From a bacterium 336/3 (lineage in GTDB: Bacteria; Bacteroidota; Bacteroidia; Cytophagales; Thermonemataceae), in the NCBI GenBank assembly GCA_001281695.1, contig LJIE01000001.1, positions 2,122,586 through 2,186,585 of the forward strand: a DNA stretch of 64,000 nt, in the 5' to 3' direction. The translations under genes were made by a program, and so were the position numbers. How positions within the stretch are numbered: position 1 is the stretch's first letter; the number at the start of each line of letters is the position of its first letter. The notes under the pieces are model-generated. The model was not told the DNA's origin, did not search any database, and worked only from the letters and a program-made list of their open reading frames with translations. Shown piece after piece: positions 10,542 through 15,304 of the stretch.

Positions 10542-10564
10542 ATTACGCAATTCTATTGCGTAAT
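10542..10564. promoter_or_regulatory. Perfect palindrome upstream of the tRNA-like array (putative operator)
   Basis: Two perfect 10-base arms, ATTACGCAAT and ATTGCGTAAT, are separated by TCT. The site ends eight bases before a TATCTTTG -7 element and replaces the -33 region, the usual place for an activator or repressor dimer. It is in a very AT-rich stretch, so a GC-containing perfect repeat of this length stands out. The binding protein is not encoded in an obvious way nearby. Confidence 0.65.
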
Positions 10565-10572
10565 ATAGCATG

Positions 10573-10580
10573 TATCTTTG
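10573..10580 (+). promoter_or_regulatory. -7 promoter element of the tRNA-like array
   Basis: TATCTTTG matches the Bacteroidota TAnnTTTG consensus. Transcription would begin about 10585-10587, at the base of the first structured element. The only TTG upstream is at 10556-10558 inside the palindrome, with a 14-base gap rather than about 20. This suggests that the promoter depends on a protein bound to the palindrome. Confidence 0.6.
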
Positions 10581-10661
10581 TATCATCAGAAAGGTCAAGA
10601 ATAAATTACTTCTAAAACAACTTTTTTCCAAGTCAAAAATTTGTTCAATTACCTGATGATA
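10581..10661 (+). ncRNA. Structured RNA element E0 (GGUCAA strand first), array leader
   Basis: A hairpin with conserved strands. Strand one is GGUCAA (10593-10598), N7 GAAUAAA (10599-10605) and UUACUUC (10606-10612). Strand two is N7' UUUGUUC (10640-10646), AAUU (10647-10650) and ACC (10651-10653). N7 and N7' pair over all seven positions with one G-U. AGGU/ACCU closes the CAA/AAUU internal loop. Outside, UAUCAUC (10581-10587) pairs with GAUGAUA (10655-10661). If transcription begins near 10586 the outer helix is only partly present. Confidence 0.8.
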
Positions 10662-10665
10662 AAAA

Positions 10666-10786
10666 GAAGCAGTAGCTCAGATGGTTAGAGCGACGTAAAA
10701 TTTTGTAATTATCGTTTTGGTCAAACAAAATTTACTCCTATAGCCTTCCAAGCCGTAGGTCGCTGGTTCGAGTCCAGCCTGCTTCA
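10666..10786 (+). tRNA. tRNA-Gly(UCC)-like gene with 47-nt insert in the anticodon stem
   Basis: The acceptor stem is GAAGCAG/CUGCUUC (7 pairs), D-stem GCUC/GAGC, T-stem GCUGG/CCAGC with loop UUCGAGU, discriminator A at 10786, no encoded CCA. Read directly, the anticodon stem fails. If 10696-10742 is removed, ACG joins GC to give ACGGC-CUUCCAA-GCCGU, a perfect stem with anticodon UCC (10747-10749). The spliced length is 74. The exact joints could shift by a base or two. Discriminator A rather than the U of bacterial tRNA-Gly is unusual. It is the first of four such genes; whether it is charged or used in translation cannot be told. Confidence 0.8.
10696..10742 (+). other. Insert (intron-like) I1 carrying the permuted RNA motif
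   Basis: The order is reversed relative to E0: N7' AUUUUGU (10700-10706), AAUU, AUC, five-base loop, GGU, CAA, N7 ACAAAAU (10725-10731), UUACUCC (10732-10738). N7 and N7' are fully complementary. UUAC also pairs with GUAA at 10695-10698, whose G is the last base of the 5' exon in my assignment; A10699 is bulged. The result is an 11-pair hairpin interrupted only by the conserved CAA/AAUU loop. It is much too short for a group I or II intron. Confidence 0.75.
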
Positions 10787-10787
10787 C

Positions 10788-10857
10788 TAGTTAAGGTCAA
10801 GTGATGCTTACTTCCTATCTTTCGATAAAAGCAAATAGCATCACAATTACCTAATTA
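10788..10857 (+). ncRNA. Structured RNA element E1 between tRNA-like genes 1 and 2
   Basis: AGGU CAA (10794-10800), N7 GUGAUGC (10801-10807) and UUACUUC (10808-10814) face N7' GCAUCAC (10838-10844), AAUU and ACCU (10849-10852). The seven N7 pairs are all Watson-Crick. A UAUC/GAUA mini-hairpin follows UUACUUC. UAGUU (10788-10792) can pair with AAUUA (10853-10857) outside, leaving A10793 bulged. The element begins one base after the discriminator of tRNA-like gene 1. Confidence 0.82.
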
Positions 10858-10864
10858 AAATATG

Positions 10865-10988
10865 GAAACAGTAGTGTAATGGTAGCACACAGCCATTTTT
10901 GAGCATTTTAATTATCTTTTAAAAGGTCAAAAAAGGCTTACTTCAAAGTGGGGAGGCTGTAGTGAGGGTTCGATTCCTTCTTGTTTCT
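10865..10988 (+). tRNA. tRNA-Pro(GGG)-like gene with about 53-nt insert at the anticodon loop
   Basis: The acceptor stem is GAAACAG/UUGUUUC (last pair G-U), D-stem GUGU/GCAC, T-stem GAGGG/CCUUC with loop UUCGAUU. The anticodon stem CAGCC/GGCUG is already complete, and the insert lies at its loop side. Removing about 10895-10947 leaves loop GUGGGGA with U33, anticodon GGG (10950-10952) and G37, as expected for Pro. The joint is ambiguous by one or two bases. Unlike bacterial tRNA-Pro, pair 1-72 is G-C rather than C-G and the discriminator is U. Spliced length is about 71. No E element separates it from gene 3. Confidence 0.75.
10895..10947 (+). other. Insert (intron-like) I2 carrying the permuted RNA motif
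   Basis: N7' GCAUUUU (10903-10909), AAUU, AUCU, loop, AGGU, CAA, N7 AAAAGGC (10931-10937), UUACUUC (10938-10944). N7/N7' pairs at six of seven positions, with one mismatch. UGA (10900-10902) extends the stem by pairing with UUA (10938-10940). The AUC/GGU variant keeps pairing by U-G, a compensatory change relative to ACC/GGU. Confidence 0.75.
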
Positions 10989-11005
10989 CAAAAATAAAAA
11001 AATAC

Positions 11006-11123
11006 GAAGCAGTAGCTCAGTTGGTAGAGCACGTAAGCTTAAAAATTACCAAACATGGTCAATTTAGACTTACTTCTAACACTGTTAATGTCGTGGTCGT
11101 TGGTTCGAGTCCAACCTGCTTCG
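11006..11123 (+). tRNA. tRNA-Asn(GUU)-like gene with 45-nt insert in the anticodon stem
   Basis: The acceptor stem GAAGCAG/CUGCUUC is identical to that of gene 1. D-stem GCUC/GAGC, T-stem GUUGG/CCAAC with loop UUCGAGU, discriminator G (11123), as in bacterial tRNA-Asn. Removing 11034-11078 joins CG to ACA, giving CGACA-CUGUUAA-UGUCG, a perfect stem with anticodon GUU (11084-11086). The spliced length is 73. The insert joint lies between stem positions 28 and 29, compared with 29/30 in gene 1. It is followed by element E2. The shared acceptor stem with a different anticodon is a strong oddity. Confidence 0.82.
11034..11078 (+). other. Insert (intron-like) I3 carrying the permuted RNA motif
   Basis: GUAA (11033-11036), N7' GCUUAAA (11037-11043), AAUU, ACCA, four-base loop, UGGU, CAA, N7 UUUAGAC (11063-11069), UUACUUC (11070-11076). 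GUAA pairs with UUAC, and N7/N7' pairs at six of seven positions. The mismatch is the second base of N7', whereas in I2 it is the third. ACCA/UGGU is the best four-pair version of the small helix. The insert begins with UAA and ends with CUA. Confidence 0.78.
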
Positions 11124-11124
11124 C

Positions 11125-11190
11125 TAGCTAAGGTCAAGCAATGCTTACTTCTATTCATTGGACGAAATAGCATTTCAATTACCTAAGCTA
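11125..11190 (+). ncRNA. Structured RNA element E2 between tRNA-like genes 3 and 4
   Basis: AGGU CAA (11131-11137), N7 GCAAUGC (11138-11144), UUACUUC (11145-11151), then N7' GCAUUUC (11170-11176), AAUU, ACCU (11181-11184). N7/N7' pairs at six of seven positions. UAGCU (11125-11129) and AGCUA (11186-11190) form a perfect outer helix, separated from AGGU/ACCU by one A-A mismatch. It begins one base after the discriminator of gene 3 and ends six bases before gene 4. Confidence 0.82.
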
Positions 11191-11196
11191 AAAAAA

Positions 11197-11321
11197 GAAA
11201 TAGTGATGTAATGGTAGCATGCCAGTTATTTTGAGTTTTTTCATTATCTGTAAAAGGTCAAAAAAAGCTTACTTCAAAATCCTGTAAGGCTGGTCGTGAG
11301 GTTCGAATCCTTCCTGTTTCA
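11197..11321 (+). tRNA. tRNA-Tyr(GUA)-like gene with 55-nt insert in the anticodon stem
   Basis: The acceptor stem is GAAAUAG/CUGUUUC (7 pairs, one U-G), D-stem AUGU/GCAU, T-loop UUCGAAU, discriminator A (11321). Removing about 11226-11280 gives CCAGC-CUGUAAG-GCUGG, a perfect stem with anticodon GUA (11284-11286). The spliced length is only 70, with a three- or four-base variable loop. Bacterial tRNA-Tyr normally has a long variable arm, so this is not a standard bacterial tRNA-Tyr. The outermost T-stem pair (U-C) is mismatched. Together these make use in translation doubtful, although the fold is intact. Confidence 0.75.
11226..11280 (+). other. Insert (intron-like) I4 carrying the permuted RNA motif
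   Basis: N7' GUUUUUU (11235-11241), CAUU, AUCU, loop GUAAA, AGGU, CAA, N7 AAAAAGC (11262-11268), UUACUUC (11269-11275). N7/N7' pairs at all seven positions with one G-U, and UGA/UUA extends it. The AAUU strand has become CAUU, the only change there among the eight copies. Confidence 0.75.
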
Positions 11322-11326
11322 CTTTA

Positions 11327-11394
11327 AGGTCAATAGTTACTTACTTCTGCCGTAAGGCACTTCACTTTTACTGAACCTAGTAACTAAATTATCT
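11327..11394 (+). ncRNA. Structured RNA element E3 before the 758-residue protein gene
   Basis: AGGU CAA (11327-11333), N7 UAGUUAC (11334-11340), UUACUUC (11341-11347), then N7' GUAACUA (11380-11386), AAUU, AUCU (11391-11394). All seven N7 pairs are Watson-Crick. Inside, UGCC-GUAA-GGCA (11348-11359) forms a GNRA-capped hairpin. It ends 20 bases before the ATG of the protein gene, where it could affect translation or mark a processing site separating the tRNAs from the mRNA. Confidence 0.8.
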
Positions 11395-11414
11395 TACTTT
11401 TAAACAATACAATT

Positions 11415-13691
11415 ATGAAAAATTTACAAAAAGTAGCCCTTCGTCAAAAAGCAGTATTTATAACTGATGTACAAAATGCATCAGATAATAAGGCTATCAG
11501 ACCAACAACTGCCAATTTGGTAGCTAATTTGGCAAGATTGGGTTTTAGTGTTTCCGAACCTTTGTTGAAGGCTTTAAACCAAACTTCACCTACCTATCAG
11601 TTAGATTTATTGGAACAGTTTCGTGAAGTAATGGGCGTAAATAAAAATTGGACACCCTTAGTAAAAGGTTGGGATACACCAACAGGTGAAACGCTTACAG
11701 ACCATATCATGACTTGGTTTGCAAACGTTTTCCAAGCCAAAGGTACACGTCTGCAATGTGGACATATTATCCCTGCTGATACATTTCCTCTAGAGCGTTA
11801 CAACGGTTGCCCTTTTTGTGGAACTCCTTTCGAAAAAGGTGAAATTGAAGCCTTTGGACAAGGAAGTAAACTAAAATTACTGAATCTGTGGACTGAAAAA
11901 GAAGCAAAAGAGTTTTTTGCAGATTTGCTGACTTCCAAAACAGCTTTGGATGCTACCCAAATGGATAGCTTGAAAATATTGTTATCAGAATTCCCTTTGC
12001 CTCAAGTGGCAGTAGGAGTAAAAGAAACGTTGATAGCTGTCATTGATTTGTGTATTGAACAAAATCAACCAGAAAAAGCACAAAGTTTATTCGCTTCACC
12101 AACAGATATTTTACGTTACTTGTGGTACAAAAATACTGGATTCTTGCAAATTATAGAGCCTAAAACGATTGTAAAACGTTCTGTGAAAAATAATACATAC
12201 CGTAAAGTGGTAATCAAGCCTGATGTTAAAGGAAATGGAATAGTATTTTCTACATCAAGCACAAGTGGGCTAGCATTGCTTGAAGCTAAAAAAGATTTGA
12301 AACTCAAATACAACAGAGCAGAATGTTTGCGAGTAGCCAAATGGTTGAACGATTTGCCTATGGACACAGAGAAAATCTGTGAATCGATGCACCCTAAACG
12401 TGGTATGTGGGTTCGCTTCATCAGAGCTTTGCGACTTGCAGAATACAGCAAAAAAGCAGGTTTTGAGAAGTTAAAAGCTATCTTGGATATGTTTTACAAC
12501 GAGACATACCCAGTATGGCAGGGAACAATCAATTACTACAAACTGCGTTCTGATGTGGTAAAAACCATGAATTTGTTAAAACAACGCCCAGGTTTGTTTG
12601 CCCGTTCATTGTTTGCCAATATGTTGTGGTTTGGAAAAGATGAAGTATTGTCAGCATTTGCTGAGATTATAGACAAAGTTCCTGCTCGTTTGGTGTTTAC
12701 GCTCAATATGTATGCAGAAAACTACTTCAAAAAAGGTGGTTTTAGAACCGTAAAGCCTTTGGGTGGTGTGGCAAAAGGAGTATCAGCTAATCCGTTGTTA
12801 TCTTTATACACAGATGAGCAACTTGGAGAGATGAAAGATGGTATTGCTGATTTGTGTGTATTGGCTATGAAAAAACGTTTTGCAGCCATCCAAACAGAAA
12901 GCAAAACAATCTACATAGACCCAATGCTCTACAAAATGCCTGTGGCAATAGGTGATAGAAGTGAAAGTGTGCAAGATTTGCCTACAGCATTACAAGGTAC
13001 TCGTTTTGTGGTAGATGGTGATAAAGTTCGTTTGTTTATGCAATGGGGTACAGGAATGCCTGCTCAACACTTGGATATGGACTTGAGCTGTCATATTGCC
13101 TACGAAAATAGAACAGATTTTTGTTCATTTTCAAACTTGCATACAACAGGATGTAAACACAGTGGTGATATCCGAAGTATCCCAGATAAAGTAGGTACAG
13201 CCGAATACATCGAGATTTCGGTAAGTGAATTACAAAAAGCGAAAGCAAAATACGTAACATTTACTTGTAATGCTTACAGTAACGGCTCTATCACACCTAA
13301 TTTGGTGATTGGTTGGATGAATAGCAAACACCCTATGAAAATCTCTGAAAGAACAGGTGTAGCTTACGATCCTGCTTGTGTACAACACCAAGTTCGTGTA
13401 ACACAAAAATTAACCAAAGGTTTGGTTTTTGGGGTGTTGGATGTAGAGGCAGCAGAGATAGTATGGCTTGAAATGCCTTTTGATGGACAAGTAGTACAAG
13501 GCTTAGATTTGAGAAATATCAAGGCTTTGTTAGGAAAATTAGAGAGCAAATTAAGTGTAGGTAACTTGCTTGCTATCAAGGCAGAAGCTCAGAATTTGAC
13601 AATCCTTGAAACTGCTGAAAATGCAGATGAAGTGTATGATGCAAATTGGGCTATCAATTCGGCGGCTGTAACTAAATTGCTTGTGGATTAA
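11415..13691 (+). CDS. Unrecognised array-associated protein with zinc motif and TerD-like C-terminus
   Basis: A 758-residue protein of unknown family. Visible parts are a CxH...CxxC putative zinc site (Cys115, His117, Cys132, Cys135); a long helical middle (about 200-500) rich in Leu/Lys with KLRSDVVKTMNLLKQRPGLFARSLF, recalling alpha-helical repeats of RNA-binding proteins; and, near 540-660, a beta-rich segment (DMDLSCHIAYEN, then HSGD) reminiscent of TerD domains. I looked for TROVE/Ro60 hallmarks and did not find enough. It starts 20 bases after element E3, so it is almost certainly in the array transcript. I infer that it binds or processes the structured RNAs. The TerD resemblance is weak and needs a profile search. 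Confidence 0.7.
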   Translation: MKNLQKVALRQKAVFITDVQNASDNKAIRPTTANLVANLARLGFSVSEPLLKALNQTSPTYQLDLLEQFREVMGVNKNWTPLVKGWDTPTGETLTDHIMTWFANVFQAKGTRLQCGHIIPADTFPLERYNGCPFCGTPFEKGEIEAFGQGSKLKLLNLWTEKEAKEFFADLLTSKTALDATQMDSLKILLSEFPLPQVAVGVKETLIAVIDLCIEQNQPEKAQSLFASPTDILRYLWYKNTGFLQIIEPKTIVKRSVKNNTYRKVVIKPDVKGNGIVFSTSSTSGLALLEAKKDLKLKYNRAECLRVAKWLNDLPMDTEKICESMHPKRGMWVRFIRALRLAEYSKKAGFEKLKAILDMFYNETYPVWQGTINYYKLRSDVVKTMNLLKQRPGLFARSLFANMLWFGKDEVLSAFAEIIDKVPARLVFTLNMYAENYFKKGGFRTVKPLGGVAKGVSANPLLSLYTDEQLGEMKDGIADLCVLAMKKRFAAIQTESKTIYIDPMLYKMPVAIGDRSESVQDLPTALQGTRFVVDGDKVRLFMQWGTGMPAQHLDMDLSCHIAYENRTDFCSFSNLHTTGCKHSGDIRSIPDKVGTAEYIEISVSELQKAKAKYVTFTCNAYSNGSITPNLVIGWMNSKHPMKISERTGVAYDPACVQHQVRVTQKLTKGLVFGVLDVEAAEIVWLEMPFDGQVVQGLDLRNIKALLGKLESKLSVGNLLAIKAEAQNLTILETAENADEVYDANWAINSAAVTKLLVD

Positions 13692-13736: not shown

Positions 13737-14501
13737 ATGGACTTTCCATATCCTTATTATTTGTATGGTTCTGACGACTCCCAAGATCAAGATGTAATCA
13801 TCTGGATACCTGATACTTTAATGCCACCTACACAACAAGAAAGAAAAATCTTGGTTCAAAATTTGGTACAAACTTATCAGAAACCTTGGAATGCTACTTT
13901 AGTAACCATCAAGGATGGCTATTTGTCAGATACCATTTATCCAAAAGCATGGATAGATGGTTTGAATAATTCTTTATACACCACATATCATTTACATACA
14001 CAAAAACATTCTAACCCCATTGGGGGTTTAATGAAAAGGAATAAACTTTTAGGAATTTATAAAACAGCCCGAACAACACTTACATTGCTGACTCGTACAC
14101 ATTTAAGAACGTCTGTCCGTCCTGTAGTCAATGGAGTACACCCTTTCGAAATGAAACTAAAGGCTTTGGAGAAGGTGAATTTTTTTGAAATAGAAGATTT
14201 TAATCAAAAAAATACCAAAAACGAAGACATTTGGAAAACGATTGCATTCTATTTGGGACAAAATATTTCTCTCATTGAAAATAACATAGAAATTTATACA
14301 AAAAAAGATTTGGTAAAGTATCACCCAAATCTTGAAAATTTGGTTTATAGAAAGGCTATCACAATCCAAGAAAAGCAGATTTTACAAACTTATTTGGAAT
14401 ATTGGCTTACCATGGCAGAGCATTATGGGATTTATACTTCAGAAGGGATATTTTTGAAATGTAATGATGAAACCATAAACATGAAAGATGAAATTTTTTG
14501 A
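13737..14501 (+). CDS. Pol-beta-type nucleotidyltransferase-like protein (paralogue 1)
   Basis: A 254-residue protein starting MDFPYPYYLYGS. The GSDDSQDQDV motif (residues 11-20) fits the hG[GS]...DxD signature of the Pol-beta nucleotidyltransferase superfamily: Gly-Ser followed by two catalytic aspartates. The rest is helical with LNNSLYTTYHLH (about 82-93) and FYLGQNISL, both conserved in the following paralogue. Its place in a transcript with tRNA-like genes suggests that its substrate is RNA, perhaps end repair or nucleotide addition; that is inference. It resembles in outline the Pol-beta proteins associated with RNA ligation systems, but I cannot assign a subfamily. Confidence 0.75.
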   Translation: MDFPYPYYLYGSDDSQDQDVIIWIPDTLMPPTQQERKILVQNLVQTYQKPWNATLVTIKDGYLSDTIYPKAWIDGLNNSLYTTYHLHTQKHSNPIGGLMKRNKLLGIYKTARTTLTLLTRTHLRTSVRPVVNGVHPFEMKLKALEKVNFFEIEDFNQKNTKNEDIWKTIAFYLGQNISLIENNIEIYTKKDLVKYHPNLENLVYRKAITIQEKQILQTYLEYWLTMAEHYGIYTSEGIFLKCNDETINMKDEIF

Positions 14502-14599
14502 AATTGAGAAAATAGAGATAAGAGAAAGGAAATAAGATGGTGCACAAATCAAAACTCTTTTCTCCAAATTCTTTGTTCTTACATCTAAACAAAATAATT

Positions 14600-15304
14600 A
14601 TGAAAACTTTACAATATCAATTTTTCGGCTCACAAAACTCACAAGATATAGATGTGGCTTTTGTGTTGGATGTATTGCCTGAAACTACACAAGAAAGAGC
14701 CAATTTGAGTAAACATTATAGCCAAATGCTTGCTGAAATACATGGTTTTACTCGTCCTGTAAATGGTAATTTGGTAGTAGCTGAGAATGGCGTACTTACA
14801 GATGTGTTTAAAGGTACAAAAGACGAACTCAATAATGCTTTGTATTATACATATTCTTTACACAACCAATATTGCGAAAGTGTGATAAGCAAATTGGTTG
14901 AACGAGATGTAGATTTGAAGTTTATGAGAGCCAGTAGAAGTATTTTATCTTATTTCACACGAACCTCCATCAGAGTAGCTGTAAAAGAAGCCCTGAGAGG
15001 AGATATTGACCTCAAATATCAAACACTGAAGGAAATGGATTTTATAGGTATTTTGGCTTCTGAGGTGAACGACTTGGATGCTCGAAAAAGCATTGCTTTT
15101 CAGTTGGGACAAACAGTGGGTTTGGATGATGGCAAAGAACTCTATACCAAAGACGCTATCAAAGCATATTTTCCTATCTTAAAGCCTTATTTGGAACGAG
15201 AAAAAACAGTTTTTCTGCAAGGATTACAAGATATGCTGGATATTTTCTTGTGGAAATTAGACATCAGAAGGCAAAGTATGCCTGTTAAATTTGAATACAA
15301 ATAA
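14600..15304 (+). CDS. Pol-beta-type nucleotidyltransferase-like protein (paralogue 2)
   Basis: A 234-residue protein. I chose ATG 14600 over an upstream ATG at 14537 because MKTLQYQFFGS then aligns with the start of paralogue 1, and the 22 extra residues look non-coding. The active-site motif is GSQNSQDIDV (residues 10-19). LNNALYYTYSLH, TRTSIRVAV and FQLGQTVGL match paralogue 1, so the two arose by duplication. Both keep Gly-Ser and the DxD, so both may be active, perhaps as a heterodimer or with different RNA ends as substrates. A clear terminator follows and ends the operon. Confidence 0.75.
   Translation: MKTLQYQFFGSQNSQDIDVAFVLDVLPETTQERANLSKHYSQMLAEIHGFTRPVNGNLVVAENGVLTDVFKGTKDELNNALYYTYSLHNQYCESVISKLVERDVDLKFMRASRSILSYFTRTSIRVAVKEALRGDIDLKYQTLKEMDFIGILASEVNDLDARKSIAFQLGQTVGLDDGKELYTKDAIKAYFPILKPYLEREKTVFLQGLQDMLDIFLWKLDIRRQSMPVKFEYK

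Follow-up and report, generated by a model that had tools for sequence, protein, structure and literature searches.

The window analysed here is a 64,000-nucleotide (nt) stretch of bacterium 336/3 (Bacteroidota; Thermonemataceae; contig LJIE01000001.1, positions 2,122,586 to 2,186,585 of the forward strand). Within it, four consecutive tRNA-shaped genes, each interrupted in the anticodon arm by a short insert, lie ahead of the gene for a 758-amino-acid (aa) protein with a RING_4-like stretch and a TerD fold, hereafter the RING/TerD protein. The inserts are, in our assessment, likely to be docking stems of the Y RNA type and not introns, and the four genes would therefore make tRNA-mimicking RNAs held by the RING/TerD protein, likely in connection with RtcB-linked RNA repair. 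We know of no simpler account of a motif that also stands free of the tRNA shapes, a joint that wanders by a few bases, and a protein gene that follows.

All four units lie on the forward strand, and the initial annotation, which had described four tRNA folds with 45–55 nt inserts in the anticodon arm and joints at differing positions, is borne out on both points. Unit 1 (U1, 10666..10786) carries an insert of 47 nt (10696..10742) and, once this is removed, the anticodon UCC; unit 2 (U2, 10865..10988) an insert of 53 nt (10895..10947) and GGG; unit 3 (U3, 11006..11123) an insert of 45 nt (11034..11078) and GUU; and unit 4 (U4, 11197..11321) an insert of 55 nt (11226..11280) and GUA. All four joints interrupt the 5′ side of the anticodon stem, after stem nucleotides 3, 5, 2 and 4 in U1 to U4, respectively; in the parse that placed those of U1 to U3, the joint was picked by a pairing-favouring score and that strand alone was considered. 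ARAGORN calls no tRNA in the intact window, nor at the array in the eight relative loci tested, so that genes of this kind are easily missed; the tRNA-type search of insert-free sequence that the initial annotation had proposed as a check, run with the same program, returned all four units as Gly(tcc), Pro(ggg), Asn(gtt) and Tyr(gta), each with a 7-nt anticodon loop in a tRNA fold. Support also comes from the parse and, for U2 and U3, from the Rfam tRNA model, which scores them at 45.6 and 48.2 bits with the inserts left in; U1 and U4 are matched by R1, a model built from 54 interrupted units including the window's four, with U1, itself among the units used, scoring 103.2 bits.

A single motif is present in all four inserts, with GGUCAA-N7-UUACUUC on one strand (UUACUCC in U1) and N7′-(A/C)AUUAYC on the other; the two N7 segments pair in 7 of 7 positions in U1 and U4 and in 6 of 7 in U2 and U3. 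The pattern GGTCAA-N(4-20)-TTACTTC occurs seven times in the window against 0.05 expected, with a spacer of exactly 7 nt every time, and an eighth copy with one mismatch lies in the U1 insert; the hairpin that the initial annotation had noticed in the inserts thus exceeds chance. Half of the eight copies lie outside the tRNA units, as forward-strand hairpins before U1 (S1, 10581..10661, GGTCAA(10593)-N7-TTACTTC-loop-N7′-AATTACC, helix 7/7), between U1 and U2 (S2, 10791..10855, 7/7), between U3 and U4 (S3, 11125..11190, 6/7) and after U4 (S4, 11324..11397, 7/7), the last stopping some 20 nt short of the protein start. Strand order in these free-standing hairpins is reversed relative to the inserts, which places the loop at the other end of the helix; within the units a loop of 5–8 nt caps the insert stem and the RNA ends pair as an acceptor stem. 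A helix of at least 6 of 7 pairs forms in 73.6% of 314 motif copies against 19.9% in a swapped-N7 control, the search for N7′ taking the best partner and the control repeating the same pick.

A likeness to this motif is found beside the true Ro60 gene of the same genome (locus C1:3343459-3344190), whose product carries TROVE and vWA domains. Its upstream region contains a cluster of ordinary tRNA genes interleaved with six elements that read (U/C)CGUAR-N7-UUACUUCG (G000:C1:3343459-3347283; L240, L324), which have in common with the window motif a 7-base-pair (bp) helix, UUACUUC and UUACC, and which likewise combine tRNA modules with a site among tRNA genes; they differ in the UCGUAR 5′ strand, in a permuted order of modules and in having a real TROVE/vWA protein as partner. 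The T-arm precedes the N7′ strand in four of the six, and read by eye their middle runs T-arm, loop-joined acceptor strands and D-arm, which is the YrlA-type order. Near TROVE genes, CGTAR-N7-TTACTTCG was found in 20 of 25 genomes, the present one included, with 73 matches against seven for the reversed pattern, in TROVE loci of 2.7 to 8 kilobases (kb), and in many of these elements the tRNA modules are circularly permuted in the manner of YrlA; 51 of the 73, in 18 loci, have a helix of 6/7 with YGnnn and a TTACC-like 3′ strand, while 22 fail the 3′-strand test and some of the matches are clearly chance (wrong strand or partner-less). TROVE itself occurs in 24 of 395 Bacteroidota genomes. The window unit and the TROVE-linked element are the same parts set in a circle and opened at different points: in the latter both ends of the RNA meet in the stem and a loop links the acceptor strands, whereas the window units have their ends at the acceptor stem.

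The motif had at first been read as a ribozyme, an interpretation dropped on seeing the Ro60-linked elements. A small self-cleaving ribozyme occurring in two circular orders and cutting the transcript would fit invariant core letters that flank a free 7-bp helix in two permuted forms; the core is, however, that of the Ro60-linked elements, no Rfam ribozyme family matches, and all 60 loci show the motif linked to a single protein gene, albeit one through which the loci were found, which together make such a ribozyme very improbable.

Known RNAs offer two further comparisons. The YrlA Y RNA, which acts with Rsr (Ro60) and PNPase (RYPER), resembles the window units in having D, T and acceptor modules, all found in the units as a tRNA-like module with the three arms, together with a protein-binding stem; the window units are unlike YrlA in that their ends lie in the acceptor stem, their anticodon hairpin is complete and their linked protein, judged from its sequence, is not a TROVE protein. 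By analogy, then, the four units would work like YrlA-type Y RNAs, although we do not file them as members; the TROVE-linked elements of this genome also reach only 23.5–23.6 bits with the Rfam YrlA model. The tmRNA shares a large insert at the anticodon arm of a tRNA body, and one relative unit (L027) scores 31.6 bits with the tmRNA model, under its cut-off of 47; the window units differ from tmRNA in keeping the anticodon hairpin. Among the titles and abstract openings listed in searches of open-licence literature, none describes tRNA-like RNAs beside the RING/TerD protein family. Burroughs and Aravind reportedly described in 2016 a tRNA-like RNA beside SPFH proteins, which may cover part of the present finding.

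The search for the same array in related genomes, also suggested by the initial annotation, scanned 84,980 species, each represented by one genome, for close relatives of the 758-aa protein and gave 60 loci; these are not independent, since 41 carry the label Flavobacterium, [Flexibacter] sp. or Flavobacteriaceae bacterium. A F. johnsoniae strain (L032) is one of the carriers. The motif lies upstream of the RING/TerD protein gene in all 60, and none was found downstream of the gene or on the opposite strand in the stretches fetched from them. A strict parse of 68 sources (the window, the 60 protein loci and seven relatives) recovered 68 interrupted units in 59 sources, with the motif in all but two of the 68 inserts (66); of the two motif-less units, at least one is probably a false parse. 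R1 finds units above 120 bits in six of the nine sources missed by the parse and a 62-bit unit in L232; L063 reaches 33 bits and L068 has none. Across the 395 Bacteroidota genomes the RING/TerD protein is present in 11, ten of which carry insert-bearing R1 matches of at least 107 bits, ordinary-length tRNAs scoring about 57 bits; the eleventh (G376) has a motif array with no insert-bearing R1 match. A Spirochaetia homologue (L066:839-3064), its gene bearing one in-frame stop codon, is preceded by a single interrupted tRNA.

The units of the relatives are also conserved as structures. Joining the flanks of the insert, whose length ranges from 41 to 162 nt, rebuilds the anticodon stem; in 23 distinct combinations of stem and joint, 83 of 85 long-range stem pairs form across the insert, whereas 20,000 shuffles averaged 50.9 and never exceeded 76; the shuffles retain the joint and not the pairing-favouring choice of it, and U4 was added by hand with a simplified stem. 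Applied to 54 units, RNAalifold supports four helices (acceptor, D, T and insert), in which 18 of 26 pairs show changes on both sides; the anticodon stem is missing from its drawing, and the columns of that stem stay apart in the alignment. Decayed tRNAs struck by a mobile hairpin hardly come into consideration given the kept pairing and a position that is constant, next to a single protein gene, in all 60 loci, even though in one locus (L230, G083:C1:370000-381000) a gene with a phage-integrase domain (33.6 bits) directly follows the last interrupted tRNA. Integration may have taken place at that unit; the 11 kb of this locus yielded no gene for a RING/TerD protein.

Introns in tRNA genes, both bacterial group I and archaeal, are inserts in the anticodon arm, and in this respect the window inserts resemble them; they are unlike them in their length of 45–55 nt, in joints on the 5′ stem strand and in a motif that also occurs outside tRNAs. 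A group I intron was rejected, the inserts being far below the more than 200 nt expected with a ribozyme core and giving no Rfam intron match. More serious is the proposal of true small introns, in which an endonuclease would read the motif and cut both joints, and RtcB would join the halves into working tRNAs. The pairs kept across the insert, U33 in 58 of 68 parsed loops and the calling of all four insert-free units as tRNAs speak for it, and some probability must be left to splicing in view of the RtcB ligase gene found close to 29 of the 60 loci and of anticodon stems that stay conserved on either side of the insert. We nevertheless favour an insert that is kept, because the motif is also free-standing around and between the units, its core recurs in the Ro60-linked elements, the anticodon drifts, and three of the four anticodons are served elsewhere: intact tRNA-Gly(UCC), tRNA-Asn(GUU) and two tRNA-Tyr(GUA) genes are present in the genome, whose Pro genes are UGG and AGG. 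Among close Flavobacterium, near-identical units carry UUU, UCU, UAU, GUU or GAU. U4, at 70 nt, has no long variable arm, unlike the tRNA-Tyr genes of this genome, and T-arm modules are nested within some inserts (L069, L027, L067), two further points against small introns.

Kinship to the tRNA of the same anticodon was found for U1 alone: that tRNA ranks 8th of 62 for U3 and 20th and 35th for U4, and the two Pro tRNAs rank 50th and 60th for U2, while the units resemble each other more (U1 and U3 84%, U2 and U4 80%). The inserts are thus probably not introns, judging from these comparisons, and the two readings left by the initial annotation part ways here: an RNA that works with its insert retained is favoured, and a new splicing route, though the main rival, is unlikely. 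Elsewhere in the genome (L245, L252, L259, L263, L270) there are odd tRNA calls, namely Asp(AUC), Asn(AUU), Val(AAC), Leu(AAG), Pro(AGG) and a CUA called Pyl.

The RING/TerD protein (11415..13691, forward strand) has a helical N-terminal part, the RING_4-like stretch at residues 114–136 and the TerD fold at about 530–705. A phage origin was considered and rejected, one scan of viral_contigs returning no relative; PADLOC recognised no defence family among the window proteins. Two proteins follow on the same strand, one of 254 aa (13737..14501) with no Pfam match and a 255-aa relative of it (14537..15304) with no Pfam match above cut-off; the two have a GSxxSQDxD motif, which in the former resembles that of pol-beta nucleotidyltransferases, and relatives of the pair lie near the RING/TerD gene in six Flavobacterium loci. 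Of the 29 RtcB genes in the fetched flanks, 24 start 200–650 nt behind the protein gene and three lie upstream; 26 are distant from the query RtcB (27–30% identity), and the one checked is RtcB by Pfam (282 bits). RlaP is near 10 of the 60 loci and a WYL-type regulator near 42. Links of RtcB to bacterial Y RNA/Rsr systems are reported for some bacteria (PMC8394870, PMC7790460), and the latter paper describes rsr, Y RNAs and rtcBA of Salmonella as one operon responding to damaged tRNA.

Upstream of the array lies a 17-bp palindrome, ACGCA-n7-TGCGT (10545..10561), which recurs in relatives: in 54 of 68 sources the 260 nt that precede the first motif contain [AG]CGCA-n(5-9)-TGCG[TC], for which the background is 0.033 per 260 nt. 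The palindrome is likely to be the operator of the array. It is followed by a candidate promoter box, TATCTTTG (10573..10580, forward strand), which matches the Bacteroidota −7 box TAnnTTTG; under a loose test, TTTG occurs within 45 nt after the palindrome in 53 of the 54 sources. Array and protein gene are likely to be co-transcribed from a regulated promoter. Perhaps the palindrome-preceded arrays and the WYL regulators (L315:10676-11695, L325:5634-6659; one beside a TROVE gene) form one regulon. This arrangement, with array and gene on one strand behind one likely promoter and the last motif copy beginning no more than 110 nt from the protein match in 56 of 60 relatives, would also suit a structured 5′ leader, whose hairpins are bound by the protein they precede and whose tRNA shapes act only in cis, for autoregulation and for processing by RNase P/Z. 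Covarying anticodon arms and complete acceptor stems exceed the needs of a leader, however, and the TROVE-linked elements spread upstream over several kb among tRNA genes; we regard a leader of this kind as quite improbable on its own, although it is compatible with inserts that dock the protein.

Several observations weigh against docking stems of the Y RNA type. On the RNA side, GGUCAA in the window differs from UCGUAR in the TROVE-linked elements; the four units depart from the YrlA order, in which the two RNA ends make up the docking stem; and the Rfam YrlA model reaches at best 23.2 bits (cut-off 69) over 10957–11036, a stretch spanning two units, and is absent at E up to 1 from the arrays of L027, L061 and L064. 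U1 is nearest to the genome's own tRNA-Gly(UCC), at rank 1 with 76% identity, tied with an Arg tRNA. In the predicted folding of 54 units with the inserts in, the proximal anticodon pairs have a mean probability of 0.03, compared with 0.95 for the acceptor and 0.88 for the T arm, a result that also favours small introns. On the protein side, the 758-aa protein has no Pfam TROVE match, and TROVE and vWA domains are not recognised in it by sequence; hhalign against two TROVE proteins gives a probability of 0.1; and its N-terminal part folded alone gives a poorer model (pLDDT 71.5, pTM 0.49), with no Ro60/TROVE among the best 50 structure matches listed, a result that by the tool's own account excludes nothing. 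RtcB and a WYL gene do occur in this genome, but elsewhere, away from the array.

A second family of interrupted tRNAs, left out of the counts given for the window's family, is also matched by R1, at 62 to 70 bits, in five genomes without the RING/TerD protein (L293-L297 and L313-L315; G399, G109, G182, G364 and G352). Read by eye, its insert motif is GGCAAA-n-AGUUCCUAU / UACU-n-CGCC, and free-standing hairpins accompany it too. In two of these loci, L314 and L315, RtcB is on one side of the array and on the other is a protein of 585–596 aa with, by eye, a TerD-like end, followed by two RlaP genes.

How the docking-stem RNAs of the window might act can be sketched conditionally. The insert would stay in the RNA and its stem would be bound by the 758-aa protein, while the tRNA body would recruit, or imitate tRNA for, repair or decay enzymes. 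Most speculatively, the anticodon hairpin with its fast-changing anticodon could bait anticodon nucleases, with RtcB and RlaP mending the cuts, an idea suggested by anticodons that change fast on a constant scaffold and by the repair genes nearby. It is a tentative and rather doubtful extension that the system forms a new class of ribonucleoprotein, in which a non-TROVE, Ro-like ring protein works with tRNA-mimic anticodon baits or sensors that feed an RtcB/RlaP repair operon, the RNAs being unpermuted Y RNAs with tRNA-like ends.

If the docking-stem interpretation is true, Y RNAs and tRNAs would be circular permutations of one design, and a second family of ring proteins would likely have assumed the role of Ro60 in the RNA-repair operons of Bacteroidota. 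Apparent tRNA introns in annotation scans could then be protein-docking modules, and the system would allow a concrete test of the function of tRNA-mimicking Y RNAs, with an anticodon hairpin that is kept and that varies.
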